A stretch of 64,000 nucleotides of DNA from Methylovulum miyakonense HT12 (lineage in GTDB: Bacteria > Pseudomonadota > Gammaproteobacteria > Methylococcales > Methylomonadaceae): the NCBI RefSeq assembly GCF_000384075.1, contig NZ_KB913025.1:2123551-2187550 (forward strand), given 5' to 3'. Positions 43,053 to 53,298 of the stretch are shown here, piece by piece (within the stretch, counting starts at the first letter, position 1; the number at the start of each line of letters is the position of its first letter). The notes below the pieces were generated by a model. It was not told the DNA's origin. It ran no database searches and was given only the letters and a program-made list of their open reading frames with translations. A program made the position numbers and the translations under genes.

Positions 43053-43206
43053 TGTTAAGGCGCATTAAAGTGCAGGGGACGAGGCCCTGCAATATATTGC
43101 CAACTGGCATCCATACCGCATCCAGATTGCGTTATGAAATCGATGTCCCGGTTGGTTTGTTCAATATTTCTTGTGGGTTGCTTGCACGCCAAAACCGAGG
43201 GTTGCC

Positions 43207-43845
43207 ATGACTTATTCCCCAGCACTATTGCCGCAATTAATCGAAGCGGTTGCCGATGCCATTAACCAAAATGCCGACGCGGTGACCGAGCTGGACCAGG
43301 CGATTGGTGATGGCGACCATGTGGTTAATTTACAGCGCGGCATCCAGGCCTTGATGGCGCAACGCGACGGGTTAAGCCAACTTGAATGGGCCGAAGCTTG
43401 GCAAAAAATAGGGATGATTTTGATGTCCACGGTAGGTGGGGCTTCAGGGTCTTTACTGGGGACGTTGTTTGTGGCGATGGCGAAAGCCGCTAAGGGGCAA
43501 CCATTAAATTTGAAAGGCTTCGCCACTGCTTTTGGGCAGGGTGTGGAGTCCGTGAAATTGCGCGGGAAATCTGATGCGGGTGATAAGACGATGCTGGATG
43601 TCTTGGTTCCAGTGGCGGGCTATTTGCTCCAGGTTGCCGGTAATCCGCCGGCTATGGCGGATGTATTGGAGGACACTGGCAAAGTCGCCATTGCGGGTAT
43701 GGAGTCTACCCGCGATATGTTGGCGACCAAAGGGCGTGCTTCATATTTGGAAGAACGCACCCGCGGGCATATTGATGCGGGTGCGAAAACATCCCAACTG
43801 GTAATTTGCGCCATTTGCACAGTGTTGTCAGCAACCCCAGCGTAA
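43207..43845 (+). CDS. dhaL: Dihydroxyacetone kinase subunit DhaL
   Basis: The ADP/ATP-binding helical-barrel subunit of dihydroxyacetone kinase. The Mg2+ triad DQAIGDGDH gives D30, D35 and D37, the same spacing as in known DhaL. The family motif GGASGSLLGTLF follows near 80-91, and SDAGDKTMLDVL near 130. 212 aa from ATG 43207, which has GAGGG upstream; the frame is open to 43171. Its 3' end overlaps the convergent dhaK by 18 bases. No dhaM or PTS gene is adjacent, so whether phosphate comes from DhaM or ATP is unknown. Confidence 0.88.
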   Translation: MTYSPALLPQLIEAVADAINQNADAVTELDQAIGDGDHVVNLQRGIQALMAQRDGLSQLEWAEAWQKIGMILMSTVGGASGSLLGTLFVAMAKAAKGQPLNLKGFATAFGQGVESVKLRGKSDAGDKTMLDVLVPVAGYLLQVAGNPPAMADVLEDTGKVAIAGMESTRDMLATKGRASYLEERTRGHIDAGAKTSQLVICAICTVLSATPA

Positions 43846-44817
43846 GTTGGCTGTATGCACGGGGGCGTCCCACAACGCCAATAATTCGTCGTCCATTAGG
43901 CTGAGTGTGATTGAGCAACCCGCCATGTCCAGCGAGGTGGTGTAGTTGCCGACTAGGGAACGGGCTATTTTTACACCATGATTTTCCCATTGCTGCGCGG
44001 CCAGTTCGTACATCAAATACAATTCCGATAATGGCGTTGAGCCGAAGCCGTTGACATGCAACAGGGCGGTTTGGCCTTTTTGGGGCGCCAGTTCTTCTTT
44101 TATGGCGTTAACCAACTGCGCAACAATTTCCTTGGCATTGGTTAATGGCAGGGTGACATGACCCCGCTCACCATGGATGCCAACGCCCATTTCCATTTGG
44201 TCGTCGTTGATGGCAAAAGTGGGGTACCCTAAAGCGGGTACGGTGCAGCTGCTAAGCGCAACCCCCATAGAGGCCGTGGCGCGGGTTACCCTTTCACCTA
44301 AAGCCTTGCAGCTCGCCAAATCCGCACCCCGCTCCGCCGCCGCCCCTACTATTTTTTCGACTATCAGCGTGCCTGCCACGCCTCGCCTGCCGGTACTGTG
44401 GTTTTTGGGTAGGGAAACATCATCATCAATAAGGATTGATGCATTGGCACATTCCAGCATTTCAGCGGCAATTTCAAAATTCATCACATCGCCTGCGTAA
44501 TTTTTGACGATAAAAAGTACGCCCCCGCCGTTTTCCACCGCTTGCGCCGCCGCCAACATTTGGTCGGGGGTAGGGGAGGTGAAGACTTGGCCTGGGCAAG
44601 CGGCGTCCAGCATGCCCGTGCCAACAAAGCCAATATGCAAAGGTTCGTGCCCTGAGCCTCCGCCAGAAATTAATGCCACTTTACCTGAAGGCGTTATCTG
44701 CTTGCGCTTAACAAAATACGGTTGGCGGTTAAGTTGCACAATATCCGCATGGGCTTTTGCGAAACCACTCAGGCTTTCTTCAAGTAGGGTGTCAACTGAA
44801 TTAATGAATTTTTTCAT
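43828..44817 (-). CDS. dhaK: Dihydroxyacetone kinase subunit DhaK
   Basis: The substrate-binding subunit, which holds dihydroxyacetone as a hemiaminal on a His. The visible H215 lies in MGVGIHGERGH, matching His218 of E. coli DhaK. The glycine-rich GGGSGHEP lies at 52-59, and YAGDVMNFE near 107-115. 329 aa. It is encoded opposite dhaL, tail to tail, unlike the usual dhaKL operon. It would phosphorylate dihydroxyacetone to DHAP, feeding the triose end of the RuMP cycle. The HAD phosphatase gene lies 20 bp upstream on the same strand. Confidence 0.93.
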   Translation of the reverse strand: MKKFINSVDTLLEESLSGFAKAHADIVQLNRQPYFVKRKQITPSGKVALISGGGSGHEPLHIGFVGTGMLDAACPGQVFTSPTPDQMLAAAQAVENGGGVLFIVKNYAGDVMNFEIAAEMLECANASILIDDDVSLPKNHSTGRRGVAGTLIVEKIVGAAAERGADLASCKALGERVTRATASMGVALSSCTVPALGYPTFAINDDQMEMGVGIHGERGHVTLPLTNAKEIVAQLVNAIKEELAPQKGQTALLHVNGFGSTPLSELYLMYELAAQQWENHGVKIARSLVGNYTTSLDMAGCSITLSLMDDELLALWDAPVHTANLRWGC

Positions 44818-44837
44818 GGCGTGGCAACCGGGGTTTA

Positions 44838-45671
44838 TTAATGGGCTAGGTTTTTCAAGGCGGCTGTGACGTCGCGGATATCCGTCATCACCCAGGTAGG
44901 TTGGTAATCTGAGTTTTTGAGGTCTTCTTCCGTGGATACGCCGGTTAGGACCATTAGGCTACGGATGCCCGTGCGCACTGCACCGAGAATATCTGTTTCC
45001 AAGCGGTCACCAATGGCAATGGTCTCAGAGGCGTCCGTGCCCAGCAAAGCCATGGCTTGTTGATAGATGATGGGTTCAGGTTTGCCGATGATGGTGGGTT
45101 CTACGCCAGTTGCTACTTGCAATGCCGCTAAGATCGCACCGTTGCCGTGGGTGATGCCGTGTTCAGTCGGTAACGTGGTGTCGGCATTGGTGCCGATAAA
45201 TTTAGCCCCTGCGCGGATGTTTAGGGTCGCGGTTGCCAACTTATCCCAAGTGAGCGTTTGGTCTTTGCCACAAACCACGATGTCGGCGCCTTGGTTAGGC
45301 GTTTTGCTGCTATTGATTTCATACAGTCCCGTCAAGGTAAAGCCAAGCTTGCTTAGCGGTTCACTCGCCCCTTCTTCACCAAGGACATACACTTTCGTTG
45401 TTGCCGGATTTTCATGTTGGCTCAAATATAGCGCGGTGGCTATGCCAGAGGTAAGGATTTCGTCTTCAGTAACCGTCACCCCCATTTTTGCAAGTTTACT
45501 GACGTATTGTGTAGGGGTAAGGCTGGCATTGTTAGTGGCAAGGATAAAGCGGATGTTTTGTGAGCGGAGTGTCTGAAAGAAATCGGTTAGCCCAGTTATG
45601 GCCTGGTTGCCATGCCATAAAACACCATCCATGTCGATGATGAGTGCGCGAATATTTGTAAATGGTTCCAT
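44838..45671 (-). CDS. HAD-superfamily hydrolase, subfamily IIA (NagD/phosphoglycolate-phosphatase-like)
   Basis: Small-molecule phosphatase, 277 aa. Motif I is IDMDGVLWHGNQ with nucleophile D13 and acid/base D15. Motif II is FILATNNASLT. A C2 cap follows, then GKPEPIIYQQAM with the motif III Lys and GDRLETDI as motif IV. Subfamily members hydrolyse 2-phosphoglycolate, nucleotides or other sugar phosphates. Overlap in transcription with dhaK (20-bp gap) suggests a role near triose or sugar phosphates, but the substrate cannot be told from sequence. Confidence 0.85.
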   Translation of the reverse strand: MEPFTNIRALIIDMDGVLWHGNQAITGLTDFFQTLRSQNIRFILATNNASLTPTQYVSKLAKMGVTVTEDEILTSGIATALYLSQHENPATTKVYVLGEEGASEPLSKLGFTLTGLYEINSSKTPNQGADIVVCGKDQTLTWDKLATATLNIRAGAKFIGTNADTTLPTEHGITHGNGAILAALQVATGVEPTIIGKPEPIIYQQAMALLGTDASETIAIGDRLETDILGAVRTGIRSLMVLTGVSTEEDLKNSDYQPTWVMTDIRDVTAALKNLAH

Positions 45672-46057: not shown

Positions 46058-46705
46058 ATGGCTAGACCATTAATTCAGATGGCATTGGATTCATTAGATT
46101 TCGACGCAACAGTTGCACTTGCAGAGCAAGTAGCTCCACACGTTGACATTTTTGAAATCGGAACTCCATGCATCAAACACAACGGAGTCAATCTGGTTAA
46201 AACGCTGAGAGCAAAATTCCCAGATAAGTTAATTTTGGTTGACCTTAAAACCATGGATGCTGGTGAATACGAAGCGACTCCATTTTATGCTGCTGGTGCA
46301 GATATTTGTACAGTTCTGGGTGTATCTGGTCTTGCAACTTGTGCGGGCGTTATCAAAGCCGCTAACGCTTTTGGTGCTGAAGCACAAATCGATTTGATCA
46401 ATGTCGAAGACAAAGTGGCCTGTGCCCGTGCAACTGCTGAAGCAGGTGCCCACATCATGGGTATTCACACTGGCTTGGATGCACAAGCTGCTGGCCACAC
46501 TCCATTTTCTGATTTGAATGACATCGCCAGATTGGGCTTGAACGTCAGGATTTCAGTAGCTGGCGGCATCAAAGCTGCAACTGTCCAAGACGTTGTTAAA
46601 TCAGGTGCTAACATTATCGTTGTTGGCGCGGCTATATACGGTGCACCATCTCCTGCTGAAGCTGCTCGCGAAATTCGTGAACTGGTTGATGCAACTGAGG
46701 TATAA
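46058..46705 (+). CDS. 3-hexulose-6-phosphate synthase
   Basis: Condenses formaldehyde with ribulose 5-phosphate to 3-hexulose 6-phosphate, the fixation step of the RuMP cycle. It is an OMP-decarboxylase-like barrel of 215 aa. The first strand is PLIQMALDSLDF, the catalytic D-x-K-x-x-D is in LVDLKTMDAGEYE, and the phosphate-binding loops are SVAGGIKAAT and IIVVGAAIYGA. CGGAG lies 8 bases before the ATG. It is followed 2 bp later by phi. Codon choice is narrow and third positions are A/T rich compared with the 17-27 kb genes, consistent with very high expression. Confidence 0.96.
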   Translation: MARPLIQMALDSLDFDATVALAEQVAPHVDIFEIGTPCIKHNGVNLVKTLRAKFPDKLILVDLKTMDAGEYEATPFYAAGADICTVLGVSGLATCAGVIKAANAFGAEAQIDLINVEDKVACARATAEAGAHIMGIHTGLDAQAAGHTPFSDLNDIARLGLNVRISVAGGIKAATVQDVVKSGANIIVVGAAIYGAPSPAEAAREIRELVDATEV

Positions 46706-46707
46706 AA

Positions 46708-47241
46708 ATGCATCAGCAACTTGTTATTGAAAAGATTGCTAGCATTCTTGAAGTAACAGATGACACATATGATGTAAAGTTGACGCAATTACTTGACAGT
46801 GCCAAGCGTATATTTATAGCGGGTGCTGGGCGTTCAAAGCTTGTAGGCAATTTCTTTGCTATGAGATTGGTGCATGCTGGTTACGATGTAAGTGTCGTTG
46901 GTGAAATTGTTACACCAAGTATAAAAGCTGGGGATTTGTTAATTATAATTTCCGGTTCGGGTGAAACTGAACAATTAATCGCCTTTACAAAGAGTGCCAA
47001 AAAAGTAGGTGCCAACATTGTGTTAATCTCTGCGAAAAGCGAATCTACAATTGGTGATATGTCAGATGCCGTATTTCAAATTGGTCGGTCAGAGCAATAT
47101 GGAAAGGTGTATGGCATGCCAATGGGTACCGTTTTTGAGCTGTCTACATTGTTGTTTTTGGAGTCAACGATCTCTCATGTGATTCATGAGAAAGGTATTC
47201 CTGAAGAGATAATGAGAGAAAGGCACGCCAATTTAGAATAA
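46708..47241 (+). CDS. 6-phospho-3-hexuloisomerase
   Basis: Isomerises 3-hexulose 6-phosphate to fructose 6-phosphate, the second RuMP step. It is a SIS-domain protein of 177 aa. IFIAGAGRSKLVGNFFAMRLVH is at about 31-52, the phosphosugar loop IIISGSGETEQL at about 77-88, and GTVFELSTLLFLE lies near the end. It starts 2 bp after hps (TAAAAATG), so the two are co-translated. A hairpin follows the stop. Confidence 0.95.
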   Translation: MHQQLVIEKIASILEVTDDTYDVKLTQLLDSAKRIFIAGAGRSKLVGNFFAMRLVHAGYDVSVVGEIVTPSIKAGDLLIIISGSGETEQLIAFTKSAKKVGANIVLISAKSESTIGDMSDAVFQIGRSEQYGKVYGMPMGTVFELSTLLFLESTISHVIHEKGIPEEIMRERHANLE

Positions 47242-47374: not shown

Positions 47375-49375
47375 ATGACTTCGCGCCGAGAATTAGCGAA
47401 CGCCATACGCGCTTTAAGCATGGATGCTGTACAAAAAGCAAACTCTGGACATCCAGGGGCACCAATGGGAATGGCGGATATCGCCGAAGTTCTCTGGAAT
47501 GACTTCATGTCCCATAATCCGACCAATCCCAAATGGTCAAATCGTGATCGTTTTGTTCTCTCAAATGGTCATGGCTCAATGTTGATTTATTCGCTGTTGC
47601 ACCTGACAGGATATGATCTGCCCCTCGAAGAGTTGAAACGTTTTCGCCAACTACATTCAAAAACACCTGGGCATCCTGAGTATGGTTATGCACCTGGTAT
47701 AGAAACTACGACCGGCCCTTTAGGGCAAGGTATCACTAATGCGGTCGGCATGGCCATTGCTGAAAAAGCATTAGCAGCCCAATTCAATAAAGATGGACAT
47801 ATTATTGTAAACCATAACACCTATGTGTTTATGGGCGATGGTTGTTTGATGGAGGGCATTTCCCACGAAGCTTGCTCATTAGCAGGTACTTTGGGTTTAG
47901 GTAAGCTCATTGCTTTTTGGGACGATAATGGTATTTCCATCGACGGTCATGTAGATGGCTGGTTTACCGATAATACGCCAATGCGTTTCGAATCTTATGG
48001 CTGGCATGTCATTGCCGATGTTGATGGACATGATTCTTATGCAATCCATAAAGCAATAGAAATGGCAAAAGCTATTACAGACAAACCCACATTGATTTGC
48101 TGTAAAACGACAATAGGTTTTGGTTCACCGAACAAAGCAGGTTCCCATGCGTGCCATGGGGCACCTTTAGGCGAAGCGGAAATTAATCTGACCAAAGCGG
48201 CATTGGGCTGGGATCATGGCGCGTTTGAGGTTCCATCAAAAATCTATGCTGGCTGGGATGCTAAAGAAAAAGGTGCTAAAGCAGAACAAGCGTGGAGCGG
48301 AAAATTCCAGGCCTATAAAGAAGCTTATCCAGAATTGGCTGCAGAATACGAACGCCGTATGAAGGGTGATTTGCCTTCGAGCTGGACTGAAGGGGCTGAC
48401 GCGTTCGTCAGTTCGGTCAATGCAGAAGGCAAAACGACTGCAACGAGATTGTCGTCGTTAGCTACTATTGAGGGCTACGCGAAGCTATTGCCAGAAATAT
48501 TTGGTGGTTCAGCTGATTTAGGGTGTTCTAACATGACCGAGTGGTCAGGCTATAAGCCCATGCGTGCCGATAAGCCAGATGCAAACTACGTCAATTACGG
48601 TGTCCGTGAGTTTGGCATGTCCGCAATTATGAATGGTGTCGCTTTGCATGGCGGCCTTATTCCTTTTGGCGCGACCTTCCTGATGTTCTCCGAATATGCC
48701 CGTAATGCGGTTAGAATGGCATCTTTAATGAAGATCCGCTCTATCTTTGTTTATACCCACGATTCTATTGGTTTAGGAGAAGACGGCCCGACCCATCAAC
48801 CTATCGAGCAAACAGCTACCCTGAGGTTAATCCCAGGTATGCACGTTTGGCGTCCTTGTGATGCGGTTGAAACTGCTGTTGCTTGGCGGGCGGCGGTTGA
48901 ACGCAAAGATGGCCCTTCAGTTCTGGTGTTCTCACGTCAAAACTTAGCGCATGTCCCCCGTAGTGACGAGCAAATTAGTGCTATATCACGTGGTGGCTAT
49001 GTTCTAGTCGAAAGCGAAGGCGCTCCGGATGCCATCATCATCGCGACAGGTTCAGAAGTTGAGCTTGCTGTGAAAGCAGCGGAACAATTAAAAGCCAGCG
49101 GCAAAAATATTCGTGTTGTCTCTATGCCGTCAACAAATATTTTTGATGCCCAAGATGTTGCCTATAAAGAGTCGGTATTGCCTTCAACAATCACTAATCG
49201 CATAGCCGTTGAAGCGGGTGTGACCGAAGGTTGGTGGAAATATGTAGGCACTAATGGAAGAATTGTTGGTATTGATCATTTTGGTGAATCAGCTCCAGCA
49301 GGGCAACTATTTAAGGAGTTCGGTTTTACTGTTGAAAATGTAATTCTGAATGTAGAAGCGGTACTCCAAGACTAA
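47375..49375 (+). CDS. tkt: Transketolase
   Basis: TPP enzyme that moves two-carbon units between sugar phosphates to regenerate ribulose 5-phosphate. 666 aa. The N-terminal domain has [12 protein letters not shown] and [14 protein letters not shown]. The TPP/Mg2+ motif is [24 protein letters not shown]. The pyrimidine domain has [17 protein letters not shown] and [16 protein letters not shown]. The very strong ribosome-binding site GGAAGGAGAA precedes the ATG. It lies 133 bp after phi and 115 bp before the first repeat protein, all on one strand. Confidence 0.97.
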
Positions 49376-49490: not shown

Positions 49491-50174
49491 GTGAAAAAAA
49501 ATAATCTTATAAATGGTTTGTTTGCAACCTTATTGATTGCTAGCCCGATAGCAGGGGCAGATGAGAAATACCCTGCGGCGGATTTTCAGCCTCAAGTCGT
49601 TTTCCAGGATAACGACTATATAGCTAAAAATAACCAAACGGCCAAATTAGATACAAAAGTGGAGCAAGGTTCTTCAGAAGTGGATCCGAAATATCCTGCT
49701 GCTAACTTTAGCCCGCAAGTTGTTTATAGTGACCCTAACTATAAACCTAGTGTTTCTTCAAGCGCAGCCAGTTCTGAAAAGGTCACTAACGAAAACGATG
49801 CTAGTGTTGCAATTGAGAATAGCAGTGTTGCTACGACAGCAAAAGCAGAATCTCAATCAAACTACTTGATCGGTTTGATAGCGTTGGGATTGGTGGGGGC
49901 TTTTCTGTTTAAGAGCCAGTTTAAGTGTGGCGCTAAAAAACCGGAAAGTAAAACGGTTCCTGTTTCAAAAAGTGGTTTGACCGGGGTATCCAGGTATTTA
50001 AATAAGGTTTCTGGAACAGGCGTTTCCAGGTATTTGGAAAAACAAGTCAAATCAGCAGGTGCTTTGCCTTCTACTGGTGTTGCTAAATATATTGCCAAAC
50101 AAGTTTCGGTCGCCAAATCGACTGCGGCTGGCGCAGCGACTGGCGTTGAAAAATATATGCGTAACCGGGGATAA
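49491..50174 (+). CDS. Membrane-anchored TGVxKY-repeat protein 1 (unknown function)
   Basis: 227 aa, not recognised. The signal peptide covers about residues 1-23 (SPIAGA). A periplasmic segment carries two copies of KYPAA[DN]F[QS]PQVV[FY][QS]D at 26-40 and 67-81, joined by a Ser/Asn/Glu-rich linker. One transmembrane helix is at about 125-141. The cytoplasmic tail holds four motif copies: TGVSRYL (164-170 and 176-182), TGVAKYI (195-201) and the terminal TGVEKYMRNRG (217-227). I choose GTG 49491, with AAAGGTGA 5 bases upstream and an MKKN signal start; GTG 49482 is in frame. Protein 2 starts 3 bp after its stop. A membrane anchor presenting repeats to RuMP enzymes is a hypothesis only. Confidence 0.75.
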   Translation: MKKNNLINGLFATLLIASPIAGADEKYPAADFQPQVVFQDNDYIAKNNQTAKLDTKVEQGSSEVDPKYPAANFSPQVVYSDPNYKPSVSSSAASSEKVTNENDASVAIENSSVATTAKAESQSNYLIGLIALGLVGAFLFKSQFKCGAKKPESKTVPVSKSGLTGVSRYLNKVSGTGVSRYLEKQVKSAGALPSTGVAKYIAKQVSVAKSTAAGAATGVEKYMRNRG

Positions 50175-50177
50175 GCA

Positions 50178-50984
50178 ATGGACCAAAATTACTTGAGTGG
50201 CTTTCTCCCTCCCGCAGTGGCTGGCTTATTCTTTTTTATGAAAAGACATGATGAGACGCATGAGGAAACTCATATAGTATTGCCGACCTATTCTTGCGAT
50301 GCGAGTGGTTTGACTGGTGTTGCAAGGTATTTGGAAAATCAGAGACAGATTTTAGAGGCGAGTAAAGAAGAAGCGGAGTCACTCGAAGATCAAAGAAATA
50401 CTCAAGTGATTACGGGCGTTGCTAAATATGTAGAAAAAACTCGGCAAAATCCGGTCAGTGGTGTCGCCCGGTATATGCTGAAAAAATCACTGGCTGAAAA
50501 AAATGCGCCCAAAACAGCCAGTAAACCGCAAGTTACAGGCGTCGCCAAGTATTTGAGCAACCAAAAAGAAAAGCCTGTCCTTAGTGGCGTGGCAAAATAT
50601 TTGAAAAACCAAGATAGTTTACCTAAAGCGACTAAAGTGGCTAAATATATGGCTAAACAAGCTATTGCCGCCAAGCAGGCAAAGCCGGTTGTAGCGCATA
50701 TTGAACTAACGGGTGTGGAGAAATATCTGAAACAGCAGGAAAGTTTGCCGCAGTTGAGCAGGGTTGCTAAGTATATGAAGAAGCAAGCTTTGCTTGCTAA
50801 AATGGAAAAACCAGCTGTCGTAAAGCCTGAATTGACAGGTGTTGCCAAATATTTACAAAACCAAGAAAGTCTGCCAAAAATTAGCCGGGTGACTAAATAC
50901 ATGGCGAGACAAACCTTGGCAAACAAACAAAAAATTGAAGTTATTGAAACGGGTGTCGATAAATATATGAGAAATCGCGCTTAG
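50178..50984 (+). CDS. TGVxKY-repeat protein 2 (unknown function)
   Basis: 268 aa, not recognised. A short hydrophobic segment at about residues 6-21 (LSGFLPPAVAGLFFFM) could anchor the N-terminus. Eleven motif copies follow, starting at 45, 78, 93, 119, 135, 151, 177, 193, 219, 235 and 257. Most read [TS]GVAKYL or [SR]VAKYM followed by xxQ. From 93 to 219 the pattern repeats every 42 residues, as a TGVxKYL/RVxKYM pair 16 apart then a Lys/Ala-rich linker. It ends TGVDKYMRNRA, almost the same as protein 1. It is strongly basic and has no catalytic motif. Lying between transketolase and transaldolase, it looks like a binding or scaffold repeat array. Confidence 0.75.
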   Translation: MDQNYLSGFLPPAVAGLFFFMKRHDETHEETHIVLPTYSCDASGLTGVARYLENQRQILEASKEEAESLEDQRNTQVITGVAKYVEKTRQNPVSGVARYMLKKSLAEKNAPKTASKPQVTGVAKYLSNQKEKPVLSGVAKYLKNQDSLPKATKVAKYMAKQAIAAKQAKPVVAHIELTGVEKYLKQQESLPQLSRVAKYMKKQALLAKMEKPAVVKPELTGVAKYLQNQESLPKISRVTKYMARQTLANKQKIEVIETGVDKYMRNRA

Positions 50985-51140: not shown

Positions 51141-52127
51141 ATGGCAAAAAATTTACTTGAACAACTTAGAGAGGTTACTGTTGTTGTAGCAGATACCGGA
51201 GACATTCAAGCGATTGAAACTTTTAAACCTCAGGATGCGACAACAAACCCCTCTTTGATCACTGCGGCTGCACAAATGCCCCAATATCAAGATATTGTTG
51301 ATGGCACTTTGAAAGGTGCGAGAGAAGCTTTAGGCGCTGATTCGGCTCCAGCCCAAGTTGTATCTCTGGCGTTTGACCGTTTGGCGGTATCTTTCGGCCT
51401 TAAAATCCTTGAGATCATCCCGGGTCGAGTTTCTACAGAAGTTGACGCACGCCTGTCTTTTGACACTGATGCAACTATCGCCAAAGGCCGTGAGCTGATT
51501 GCGCAGTACGAAGCTGCTGGCATTTCGCGTGAGCGCGTTTTAATTAAAATTGCCGCTACTTGGGAAGGGATCCAAGCTGCAGCCGTATTGGAAAAAGAAG
51601 GTATCCACTGTAACCTGACTTTATTGTTTGGTTTGCACCAAGCGATTGCTTGCGCAGAAAACGGCATCACTTTGATTTCCCCTTTTGTTGGCCGTATCCT
51701 TGATTGGTACAAGAAAGATACTGGTCGTGATTCTTATCCGGCCGCAGAAGATCCAGGTGTTTTGTCTGTGACAGAAATTTACAACTACTATAAAAAATTT
51801 GGTTATAAAACTGAAGTTATGGGCGCAAGCTTCCGTAATATTGGTGAAATTACCGAATTGGCTGGTTCTGATTTGTTGACTATCGCACCATCCTTGTTGG
51901 CTGAATTGCAAGCGACGGAAGGTGATTTGCCACGCAAATTAGATCCCGATCACGCTGCGACATTATCCATCCAAAAGATCGATGTGACCAAAGAAGTGTT
52001 CGATGCGATGCATAAGGAAAACCGTATGGCAACTGATAAGTTGGCAGAAGGCATCAACGGCTTTACTGTTGCATTAGAGTCATTGGAAAAACTGTTGGCT
52101 GAGCGTTTGGCGACTTTAGAAGGTTAA
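51141..52127 (+). CDS. tal: Transaldolase
   Basis: Transfers a three-carbon dihydroxyacetone unit between sugar phosphates in the rearrangement phase of the RuMP cycle. It is a TalB-type class I aldolase barrel of 328 aa. The first strand motif is DATTNPSL near 34-41. The Schiff-base Lys lies in [12 protein letters not shown] near 130-135, and the phosphate-site region is [23 protein letters not shown] precedes the ATG. It is 157 bp after the second repeat protein and 91 bp before fba. Confidence 0.96.
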
Positions 52128-52218: not shown

Positions 52219-53298
52219 ATGTCACAAAAAATTTTAGATGTCGTCAAGCCAGGTGTGGTGACTGGTGATGATGTGCAAAAAATATTCGCAATTGCTAAAG
52301 AAAATAAATTCGCGTTGCCAGCCGTTAATGTAATCAGTACGGGTTCAATCAACGCCGTATTAGAAGCTGCTGCTAAAGTTAAATCAGCCGTCATCATCCA
52401 ATTTTCTAACGGTGGTGCGCAATATGTTGCGGGTAAAGGGCTTAAATTGGAAGGCCAAAAAACTGCTATTTTAGGCGCGATTTCTGGTGCCCAACATGTG
52501 CATGGTCTTGCCGAAGCTTATGGTGTGCCAGTGATTTTACATACTGATCATGCCGCTAAGAATTTGTTGCCTTGGATTGATGGTTTATTGGATGCGGGTG
52601 AAAAGCATTTCGCCCAAACAGGTAAGCCGCTGTTCAGTTCACATATGTTGGATTTGTCAGAAGAAAGCTTGGAAGAAAACATCGAAATATGCGGCAAGTA
52701 TTTGGAACGCATGTCCAAAATGGGTATGACTCTGGAAATTGAATTAGGTGTAACAGGTGGTGAAGAAGACGGTGTTGACAACAGCGGCATGGATCATTCC
52801 ATGTTGTACACACAGCCAGAAGATGTTGCTTATGCTTACGAACATCTGAGCAAAATCAGCCACCGTTTCACCATTGCCGCTTCATTTGGTAACGTACACG
52901 GTGTTTATTCGCCAGGTAACGTTAAATTGACCCCCAAAATTTTGGATAACTCTCAAAAGTATGTTTCCGAAAAATACGGTGTTCCGGCAAATACATTGAA
53001 TTTTGTTTTCCATGGTGGTTCAGGTTCGACTCCAGAAGAAATTAGCGAATCCATCAGCTATGGCGTGATCAAAATGAACATTGATACGGATACCCAATGG
53101 GCTGCTTGGGACGGTATTAGGCAATATTACCTAAAAAATGAAGGTTATTTGCAAGGCCAAATCGGTAACCCAGATGGGGCCGACAAGCCAAACAAAAAGT
53201 ATTATGACCCACGGGTTTGGCAACGTGCTGGTGAAGTCAGTATGGTCGCCCGCCTAGAGCAAGCATTTCAGGATTTGAACGCTGTTAACAGTCTGTAA
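52219..53298 (+). CDS. fba: Fructose-bisphosphate aldolase, class II
   Basis: Zn2+-dependent aldolase that cleaves fructose 1,6-bisphosphate (and can handle sedoheptulose bisphosphate in some RuMP organisms). 359 aa, subclass IIA. The Zn ligands are in VILHTDHAAKNLLPW and the later FVFHGGSGS, with a conserved Glu-rich region GGEEDGVDNSG. The phosphate-binding end is KMNIDTDTQWA. It is the last gene of the RuMP cluster and is followed by a strong terminator. A PPi-dependent phosphofructokinase, often linked in methanotrophs, is not in the window. Confidence 0.96.
   Translation: MSQKILDVVKPGVVTGDDVQKIFAIAKENKFALPAVNVISTGSINAVLEAAAKVKSAVIIQFSNGGAQYVAGKGLKLEGQKTAILGAISGAQHVHGLAEAYGVPVILHTDHAAKNLLPWIDGLLDAGEKHFAQTGKPLFSSHMLDLSEESLEENIEICGKYLERMSKMGMTLEIELGVTGGEEDGVDNSGMDHSMLYTQPEDVAYAYEHLSKISHRFTIAASFGNVHGVYSPGNVKLTPKILDNSQKYVSEKYGVPANTLNFVFHGGSGSTPEEISESISYGVIKMNIDTDTQWAAWDGIRQYYLKNEGYLQGQIGNPDGADKPNKKYYDPRVWQRAGEVSMVARLEQAFQDLNAVNSL

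Follow-up and report, generated by a model that had tools for sequence, protein, structure and literature searches.

In Methylovulum miyakonense HT12, two adjacent genes, here called A and B, lie among the genes of the RuMP pathway and encode proteins carrying many copies of one short peptide. Across the surveyed genomes its occurrence is almost confined to those that carry hps, the gene for 3-hexulose-6-phosphate synthase (HPS), usually beside hps itself. We give about an even chance to the reading that A and B are disordered, membrane-tethered sticker proteins gathering RuMP enzymes, most likely HPS. As the peptide is repeated, has a fixed C-terminal copy, sits on seemingly disordered chains and both co-occurs and is co-duplicated with hps, the array reads as a putative multivalent docking scaffold, and because some of the chains are anchored in the membrane so that the peptide faces the cytoplasm, a role at the membrane is suggested. 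Docking of RuMP enzymes is thus inferred from distribution, synteny and anatomy.

The window, a stretch of 64,000 nucleotides, comes from a genome assembled as a single contig of 4.69 Mb, and its RuMP cluster has the order hps, phi, tkt, A, B, tal, fba (Table 1). The original prediction of two adjacent plus-strand genes between transketolase and transaldolase was correct, and both flanking enzymes were confirmed by NCBIfam models. For A, a mechanical open reading frame search gives an alternative start at GTG 49482, 3 codons earlier, and a 230-aa frame; the start at 49491 is favoured because of an AAAGGTG ribosome site and the starts of several relatives. The predicted total of 15 motif copies is obtained with the broad pattern [TS][GRK]Vx[KR]Y[LMIV] (4 in A and 11 in B), whereas the pattern as originally written, [TS]GVx[KR]Y[LMI], strictly yields 4 + 7 = 11 copies. 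The last copy in A forms its C-terminus, and the two proteins end, as had been claimed, in TGVEKYMRNRG (A) and TGVDKYMRNRA (B). Shuffling either protein 20,000 times gave at most one motif copy per protein, and none of the window's other open reading frames of 100 aa or more contained the broad motif. Searched as a strict DNA pattern, the motif matched 7 times in the 4.69 Mb genome, always inside A and B, and a reversed-pattern control matched 3 times genome-wide. A search with B among the proteins of its own genome (E up to 10) returned nothing beyond B and A. The nearest named relative genus is Methylovulum itself (M. psychrotolerans, 71% in A).

Table 1. Features of the RuMP cluster and of genes A and B, in positions of the window.
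Feature	Position	Strand	Description
dhaL (+), dhaK (-), HAD hydrolase (-)	43171..45671	mixed	same trio 5' of hps in family f10, by inspection
hps (hxlA), 3-hexulose-6-phosphate synthase	46058..46705	+	TIGR03128, 244.5 bits, cut-off 200; product is the proposed client of the motif array
phi (hxlB), 6-phospho-3-hexuloisomerase (PHI)	46708..47241	+	TIGR03127, 193.8 bits, cut-off 160
transketolase (tkt)	47375..49375	+	TIGR00232
gene A	49491..50174	+	227 aa; signal-peptide-like start, two YPAADF-type repeats, one TM helix, four TGVxKY copies
A, periplasm-side KYPAA[DN]FxPxVx repeats	49566-49619 and 49689-49742	+	direct reading; conserved in alignments
A, transmembrane helix	49866..49910	+	hydropathy, positive-inside rule, low-confidence AF2 helix 124-146
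A, cytoplasmic motif array	49980..50171	+	4 copies
gene B	50178..50984	+	268 aa; weakly hydrophobic N-terminus, 11 motif copies
B, motif array	50313-50981	+	11 copies, the last at the C-terminus
transaldolase (tal)	51141..52127	+	TIGR00874
class II fructose-bisphosphate aldolase (fba)	52219..53298	+	TIGR01520

Protein A consists of a signal-like segment, about 100 residues with two KYPAA[DN]FxPxVx repeats (the YPA region), a TM helix at residues 129-143 of the 230-aa frame and the motifs. An N-terminal membrane element had been predicted for both proteins, but the clear TM helix of A is internal, behind the repeat region, and the N-terminal hydrophobic stretch of B is present but weak, with a best 19-residue hydropathy of 1.01. 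This N-terminus lies under the usual hydropathy of TM segments and is not unusually amphipathic; the median amphipathicity z of the N-terminus is -0.23 in B proteins of Methylococcales (n=78) and 1.73 in motif proteins of f10 (n=29), a family outside that order in which an amphipathic N-terminus is supported. Cytoplasmic placement of the motifs is borne out for A by the positive-inside rule, as K and R are richer downstream of the TM helix in 76 of 81 A-type proteins, and the first motif lies downstream of this helix in 79 of the 81 (named loci); the cytoplasmic tail of A is basic, with a net charge of +13, as is the array of B. The membrane-anchored cytoplasmic repeat array that had been proposed is therefore well supported for A, and attachment of B to the membrane is plausible.

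The motif is an 11-mer, T/S-G-V-x-K/R-Y-[LIM]-x4, and a logo built from 1,268 copies in 159 Methylococcales proteins has S/T at position 1, G (0.75) at 2, V at 3, A/S/E at 4, K/R at 5, Y at 6 and L/M/V/I at 7, after which position 9 is often basic and position 10 is Q (0.67); the invariance of V and Y is imposed by the search core. The final copy begins exactly 11 residues before the protein end in 133 of the 159 Methylococcales proteins and in 28 of 29 f10 proteins, the latter drawn from 30 f10 loci. AF2 models (28 and 34 rows) were of low confidence, with mean pLDDT values of 44.8 and, for A, 57.6. In these models short helices start at or just after the motif in 9 of 11 copies of B and in all 4 copies of A, and A modelled alone has a TM helix and short motif helices, which fits a short N-capped helix without proving it. 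Together with composition, the low-confidence models suggest that A and B are largely disordered. When B, the spacer and transaldolase were modelled as one read-through chain, transaldolase itself was unfolded and mostly below 60 pLDDT, and among the 80 named loci no pair of HPS and motif in one frame was found within 1250 codons.

The distribution of the motif was surveyed in the class (369 genomes of 272 genera) with thresholds of E<=1e-40 for hps and E<=1e-4 for motif profile A2. Each was found in six genomes, and these were the identical six, three of them belonging to f10; in the other 363 genomes profile A2 had no match. Among 251 genomes of the order Methylococcales, 199 matched A2 and 214 had hps over the cut-off, so that a first two-by-two table gave 192 genomes with both, 7 with motif only, 22 with hps only and 30 with neither; all such tables and the f10 counts were made by hand from the listed rows, with 32 A2 negatives obtained by subtraction. 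Since profile A2 misses genomes that have A alone, profile A1 was run on the 22 hps-only genomes and on two f10 genomes, and recovered motifs in G069, G086, G183, G201 and, frame-broken, G039. The final table for the order holds 197 genomes with both, 7 with motif only, 16 with hps and no motif gene found by A1 or A2, 30 with neither and one unscored genome (G236, at a contig end). A single family accounts for most of these genomes, which are therefore not independent.

The 16 exceptions comprise seven genomes of family f4 with neither an A1 nor an A2 match (G057, G065, G081, G089, G106, G116, G122), G075, in which an A-like protein is present without motifs, and eight genomes of family f6 in which an A-like protein has a basic tail in place of the motifs; G041 and G066 are f6 genomes of this kind, and G052, also of f6, has motif genes. 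At the f6 loci L225, L226, L227, L228, L229, L230, L234 and L235 the A-like protein retains the YPA-type region and the TM helix, and the tail is of the form N[RH][QH]RA.KT.R.RRR, mostly NRQRANKT[RK]R[ST]RRR. In view of these 16 genomes the array is not required for RuMP. In families f2, f7 and f8, with 23 genomes in all, no genome had hps over the cut-off and none matched a motif profile. The expectation that occurrence would track hps is thus borne out by the same six of 369 genomes and by the 197 of the order that have both, and falls short in 16 of 214 hps-positive genomes. The opposite pattern, with homologues widespread in organisms that lack RuMP genes and never close to such genes, conflicts with the same six of 369 and with motif genes beside hps in f10. 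None of the genomes sampled was identifiable as Methylophilaceae, Methylophaga or Bacillus methanolicus.

In f10, 53 of the 57 genomes have the motif and 48 have hps, and of the 36 best genomes 35 have the motif, 35 have hps and one, G623, has neither, being the sole high-completeness f10 genome without hps. A stand-alone motif frame occurs in 46 f10 genomes; in 45 of them hps lies no more than about 2.5 kb away on that contig, and in 43 it flanks the frame on both sides. The exception is G631, where the two lie on separate contigs. The remaining seven genomes with the motif have all their matches within long frames; six of these (69-89% complete) have no hps match and the seventh, G673 (94% complete), carries hps, though no stand-alone motif gene. 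In G664 (55% complete) hps is present and the motif absent. By inspection, the cluster at L175-L177 reads dhaL-dhaK-HAD-hps-motif gene-tal-hps-phi, with hps, tal and phi confirmed, and its left half, dhaL-dhaK-HAD-hps, is common to the window. Because both lineages share this synteny, the link between motif and hps may go back to one inheritance or one operon transfer, so that the evidence stands on two lineages, Methylococcales and f10, with possibly one origin. Plasmid records gave no match to B and none to an f10 RuMP block. Gene content suggests that f10 is Methylophagaceae or Methylophilaceae; in the Methylophilaceae strains described in PMC4109929 two hps copies are found at different loci, and as these copies sit apart, Methylophagaceae is tentatively favoured.

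The motif is wider than had been assumed and is not exclusive to the cluster. In 36 of 57 f10 genomes it also occurs in frames of 700-2065 aa, of which two were checked. One (L178 5745-11852, minus strand) is a full ChpA-type hybrid kinase with three Hpt domains, HATPase, CheW and REC, in which TGV/TSV-type motifs at residues 836-965 precede the kinase core, and the other (L179 up to 2549, minus strand), an incomplete frame, has six motifs at 566-662 followed by Hpt at 717-801. In Methylococcales, motif proteins encoded away from hps end in a Cys/His region, C-x9-C...C-x2-H (L180 6478-7374, minus strand; L053 6442-7272, plus strand), which had no Pfam match over cut-off; a gene near the L053 protein resembles those for small heat-shock proteins. 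Such carriers are what would be expected if the motif were a general cytoplasmic address label, for the pole, a pilus-chemosensory complex or a membrane organiser, with HPS unbound and the location in the RuMP operon happenstance. We hold this explanation to be doubtful though by no means negligible, since 363 of 369 class genomes lack the motif and the stand-alone genes lie overwhelmingly beside hps, in f10 and in the named loci; moreover, if a RuMP enzyme binds the motif, recruitment of ChpA to a RuMP assembly would explain the kinase as well. Carrying this last thought further, the proteins might form a membrane-attached, pyrenoid-like condensate of formaldehyde-fixing enzymes, to which A would provide the tie to the membrane and B or the f10 protein the cross-links, and which ChpA, bearing the same 11-residue ticket, would join in f10 and so couple to surface motility signalling; from the sequences at hand we consider this unlikely.

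If the proteins are instead taken as scaffolds for RuMP enzymes, the gene neighbourhood bears on which enzyme is the client. The sample consisted of the best 80 of 178 named relatives of A, methanotroph records of Methylococcales by title. A and B occur together in 78 of the 80 loci (L094 ends before B and L135 has A cut). At 69 loci hps is visible and the remaining 11 start less than 3 kb 5' of A, hps normally lying about 3.4 kb 5' of A; tal is visible in 77, and the other three stop just past A or B. In the multi-block genomes examined each RuMP block carries a motif gene (three blocks in L040, two each in L055, L044 and G086). L040 has three tandem hps-phi-tkt blocks, repeating every 5.2 kb or so and arranged as hps-phi-tkt-B twice and then hps-phi-tkt-A. 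The A-type genes of G039 seem frame-disrupted in both RuMP blocks (L044 3996-4748 and 10740-11405, minus strand), which may be real or a sequencing error. A second HPS-PHI frame, apparently fused and of 391 aa, is present in the source genome (G000:C1:1179324; L181 5776-6951, minus strand), and no motif gene was found in the 13 kb around it.

The client could alternatively be transketolase, transaldolase or PHI, and B or its f10 counterpart does directly precede tal in both lineages. Scaffolding of one of these enzymes nevertheless appears improbable to us, as the gene lies directly upstream of hps and not beside tal in four f4 loci (L043, L183, L224, L240, with A in this position) and the three f10 cluster loci L175-L177 gave no match to a transketolase word. 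With A upstream of hps in f4 and the gene between hps and tal in f10, hps is the constant neighbour, and as the sole neighbour constant in f1, f4 and f10 it makes HPS the likeliest client.

A connection to methane oxidation was addressed with PF02461, the pmoA model, on 59 genomes, of which 43 matched; the model misses 9 of 52 Methylococcales genomes, some nearly complete, so that its negatives are imperfect. None of seven f10 genomes matched, and six of these carry hps and the motif, the seventh being G623. Two f2 genomes, G044 and G050, had a good match and neither hps nor the motif, and the matches in f7 and f8 were weaker and may represent related hydrocarbon monooxygenases. Since hps and the motif are both present in the six f10 genomes, where pmoA gave no match, the motif tracks hps rather than pMMO. 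The same genomes make it very unlikely that the arrays organise intracytoplasmic methane-oxidation membranes as a scaffold for pMMO and lie in the RuMP cluster incidentally, an explanation that would account for the periplasmic YPA region of A and for YPA-type proteins in methanotrophs, including the pmoA-positive, hps-negative G044; furthermore, a search of 33 f10 loci for the YPA word found none. The idea may hold for the YPA half of A, and as a suggestion only, A may combine a YPA half tied to methanotrophy with a motif half tied to RuMP. Elsewhere in the source genome a secreted-looking protein of 101 aa with three YPAADF-type repeats (G000:C1:4340956-4341180; also L036 6376-6681, minus strand), lacking TM helix and TGV motifs, is encoded next to an ABC transporter whose binding protein is NMT1/THI5-like, and comparable YPA-only genes, again next to transporters of this sort, were seen by inspection at L037 and L039.

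Purifying selection was found on both genes, with dN/dS of 0.08-0.16 for A and 0.06-0.13 for B in comparisons of the window with six relatives and of three pairs among relatives, where dS was computable (3 of 12 A/B comparisons against the window were saturated). For hps and tal the values were 0.01-0.05, so that A and B are constrained, though less than these enzymes. Low-complexity drift, a functionless repeat expansion in an operon spacer to which the spread of 2-15 copies per protein among relatives might point, is largely refuted by these values (0.06-0.16), by the fixed C-terminal copy and by the two motif copies kept in the reduced genomes G183 (1.7 Mb) and G201 (1.5 Mb).

That the family was unrecognised proved right, as Pfam and NCBIfam supplied no convincing name for A or B, with nothing over cut-off for A. 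For B, a match to U1snRNP70_N (25 bits against 23) covered a 29-residue charged stretch in which no part passes alone, and was rejected as spurious. Gram_pos_anchor (LPXTG) reached 12.6 bits against a cut-off of 20, on an LPSTG that sits before the third motif, and matches to XopAD, Psb34, DPC2 and ATP_synth_reg were weak, local or under cut-off; the f10 motif protein at L177 8147-8440 weakly resembles the start of ATP_synth_reg (20.6 bits against 25), probably by chance. A PDB sequence search with B gave nothing useful (best E 0.21). Among the matches listed, the open-access literature, where most subscription papers are not covered, showed no paper on these repeat proteins.

Under the preferred reading, in which A and B gather RuMP enzymes, the T/S-G of each motif would cap a short helix that presents V, Y and L/I on one of its faces, and each such sticker would weakly bind a folded RuMP enzyme, most likely HPS. 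HPS is an oligomer, and many motif copies could cross-link it into a dense assembly. The TM helix of A would pin this enzyme layer to the cytoplasmic face of the membrane that formaldehyde made in the periplasm crosses on entry, and B, richer in copies, would extend the layer. A benefit in channelling or detoxification may be inferred for such an array.

Comparable arrangements are known for Rubisco. In the Chlamydomonas pyrenoid a Rubisco-binding motif is common to many proteins, of which EPYC1 links Rubisco, and the TM proteins RBMP1/2, which carry the motif, are proposed in the same account to tie the matrix to membranes (PMC10473226). Like EPYC1, A and B carry a short motif repeated along a seemingly disordered chain; as in the EPYC1 system, the motif is found on different proteins, including a membrane-anchored one (A, B, the ChpA-type kinase and the Cys/His protein); and the client proposed here is likewise the first enzyme of a C1-fixing pathway. 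The motif differs, the host is bacterial and the client is suggested here by genes and sequence, so the likeness is to be taken as an analogy and not as family membership. Phase separation has been shown for PYCO1 of diatoms, a repeat protein gathering a carbon-fixing enzyme through sticker motifs (PMC10288592). Protein and host differ here as well, and A and B are known from their sequences. The bacterial counterpart is CsoS2 of alpha-carboxysomes, a disordered repeat protein that gathers a carbon-fixing enzyme and also binds the protein shell. A and B would resemble it as bacterial disordered repeat proteins and putative enzyme gatherers; they differ in the membrane helix of A, shell binding being a feature of CsoS2.

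How toxic formaldehyde is kept from leaking between its production in the periplasm and its fixation in the cytoplasm is an old question. Membrane-associated HPS was reportedly found in Methylococcus in 1974, and if the proposed reading is true, the docking peptide would offer a possible reason for it. Channelling has been forced by engineered fusions of methanol dehydrogenase to HPS-PHI, as described in PMC8879981. A natural docking peptide would allow a direct test of the spatial organisation of RuMP and would be a transplantable part for synthetic methylotrophy, and the sticker-scaffold principle of Rubisco compartments would be extended to a second C1-fixing pathway.
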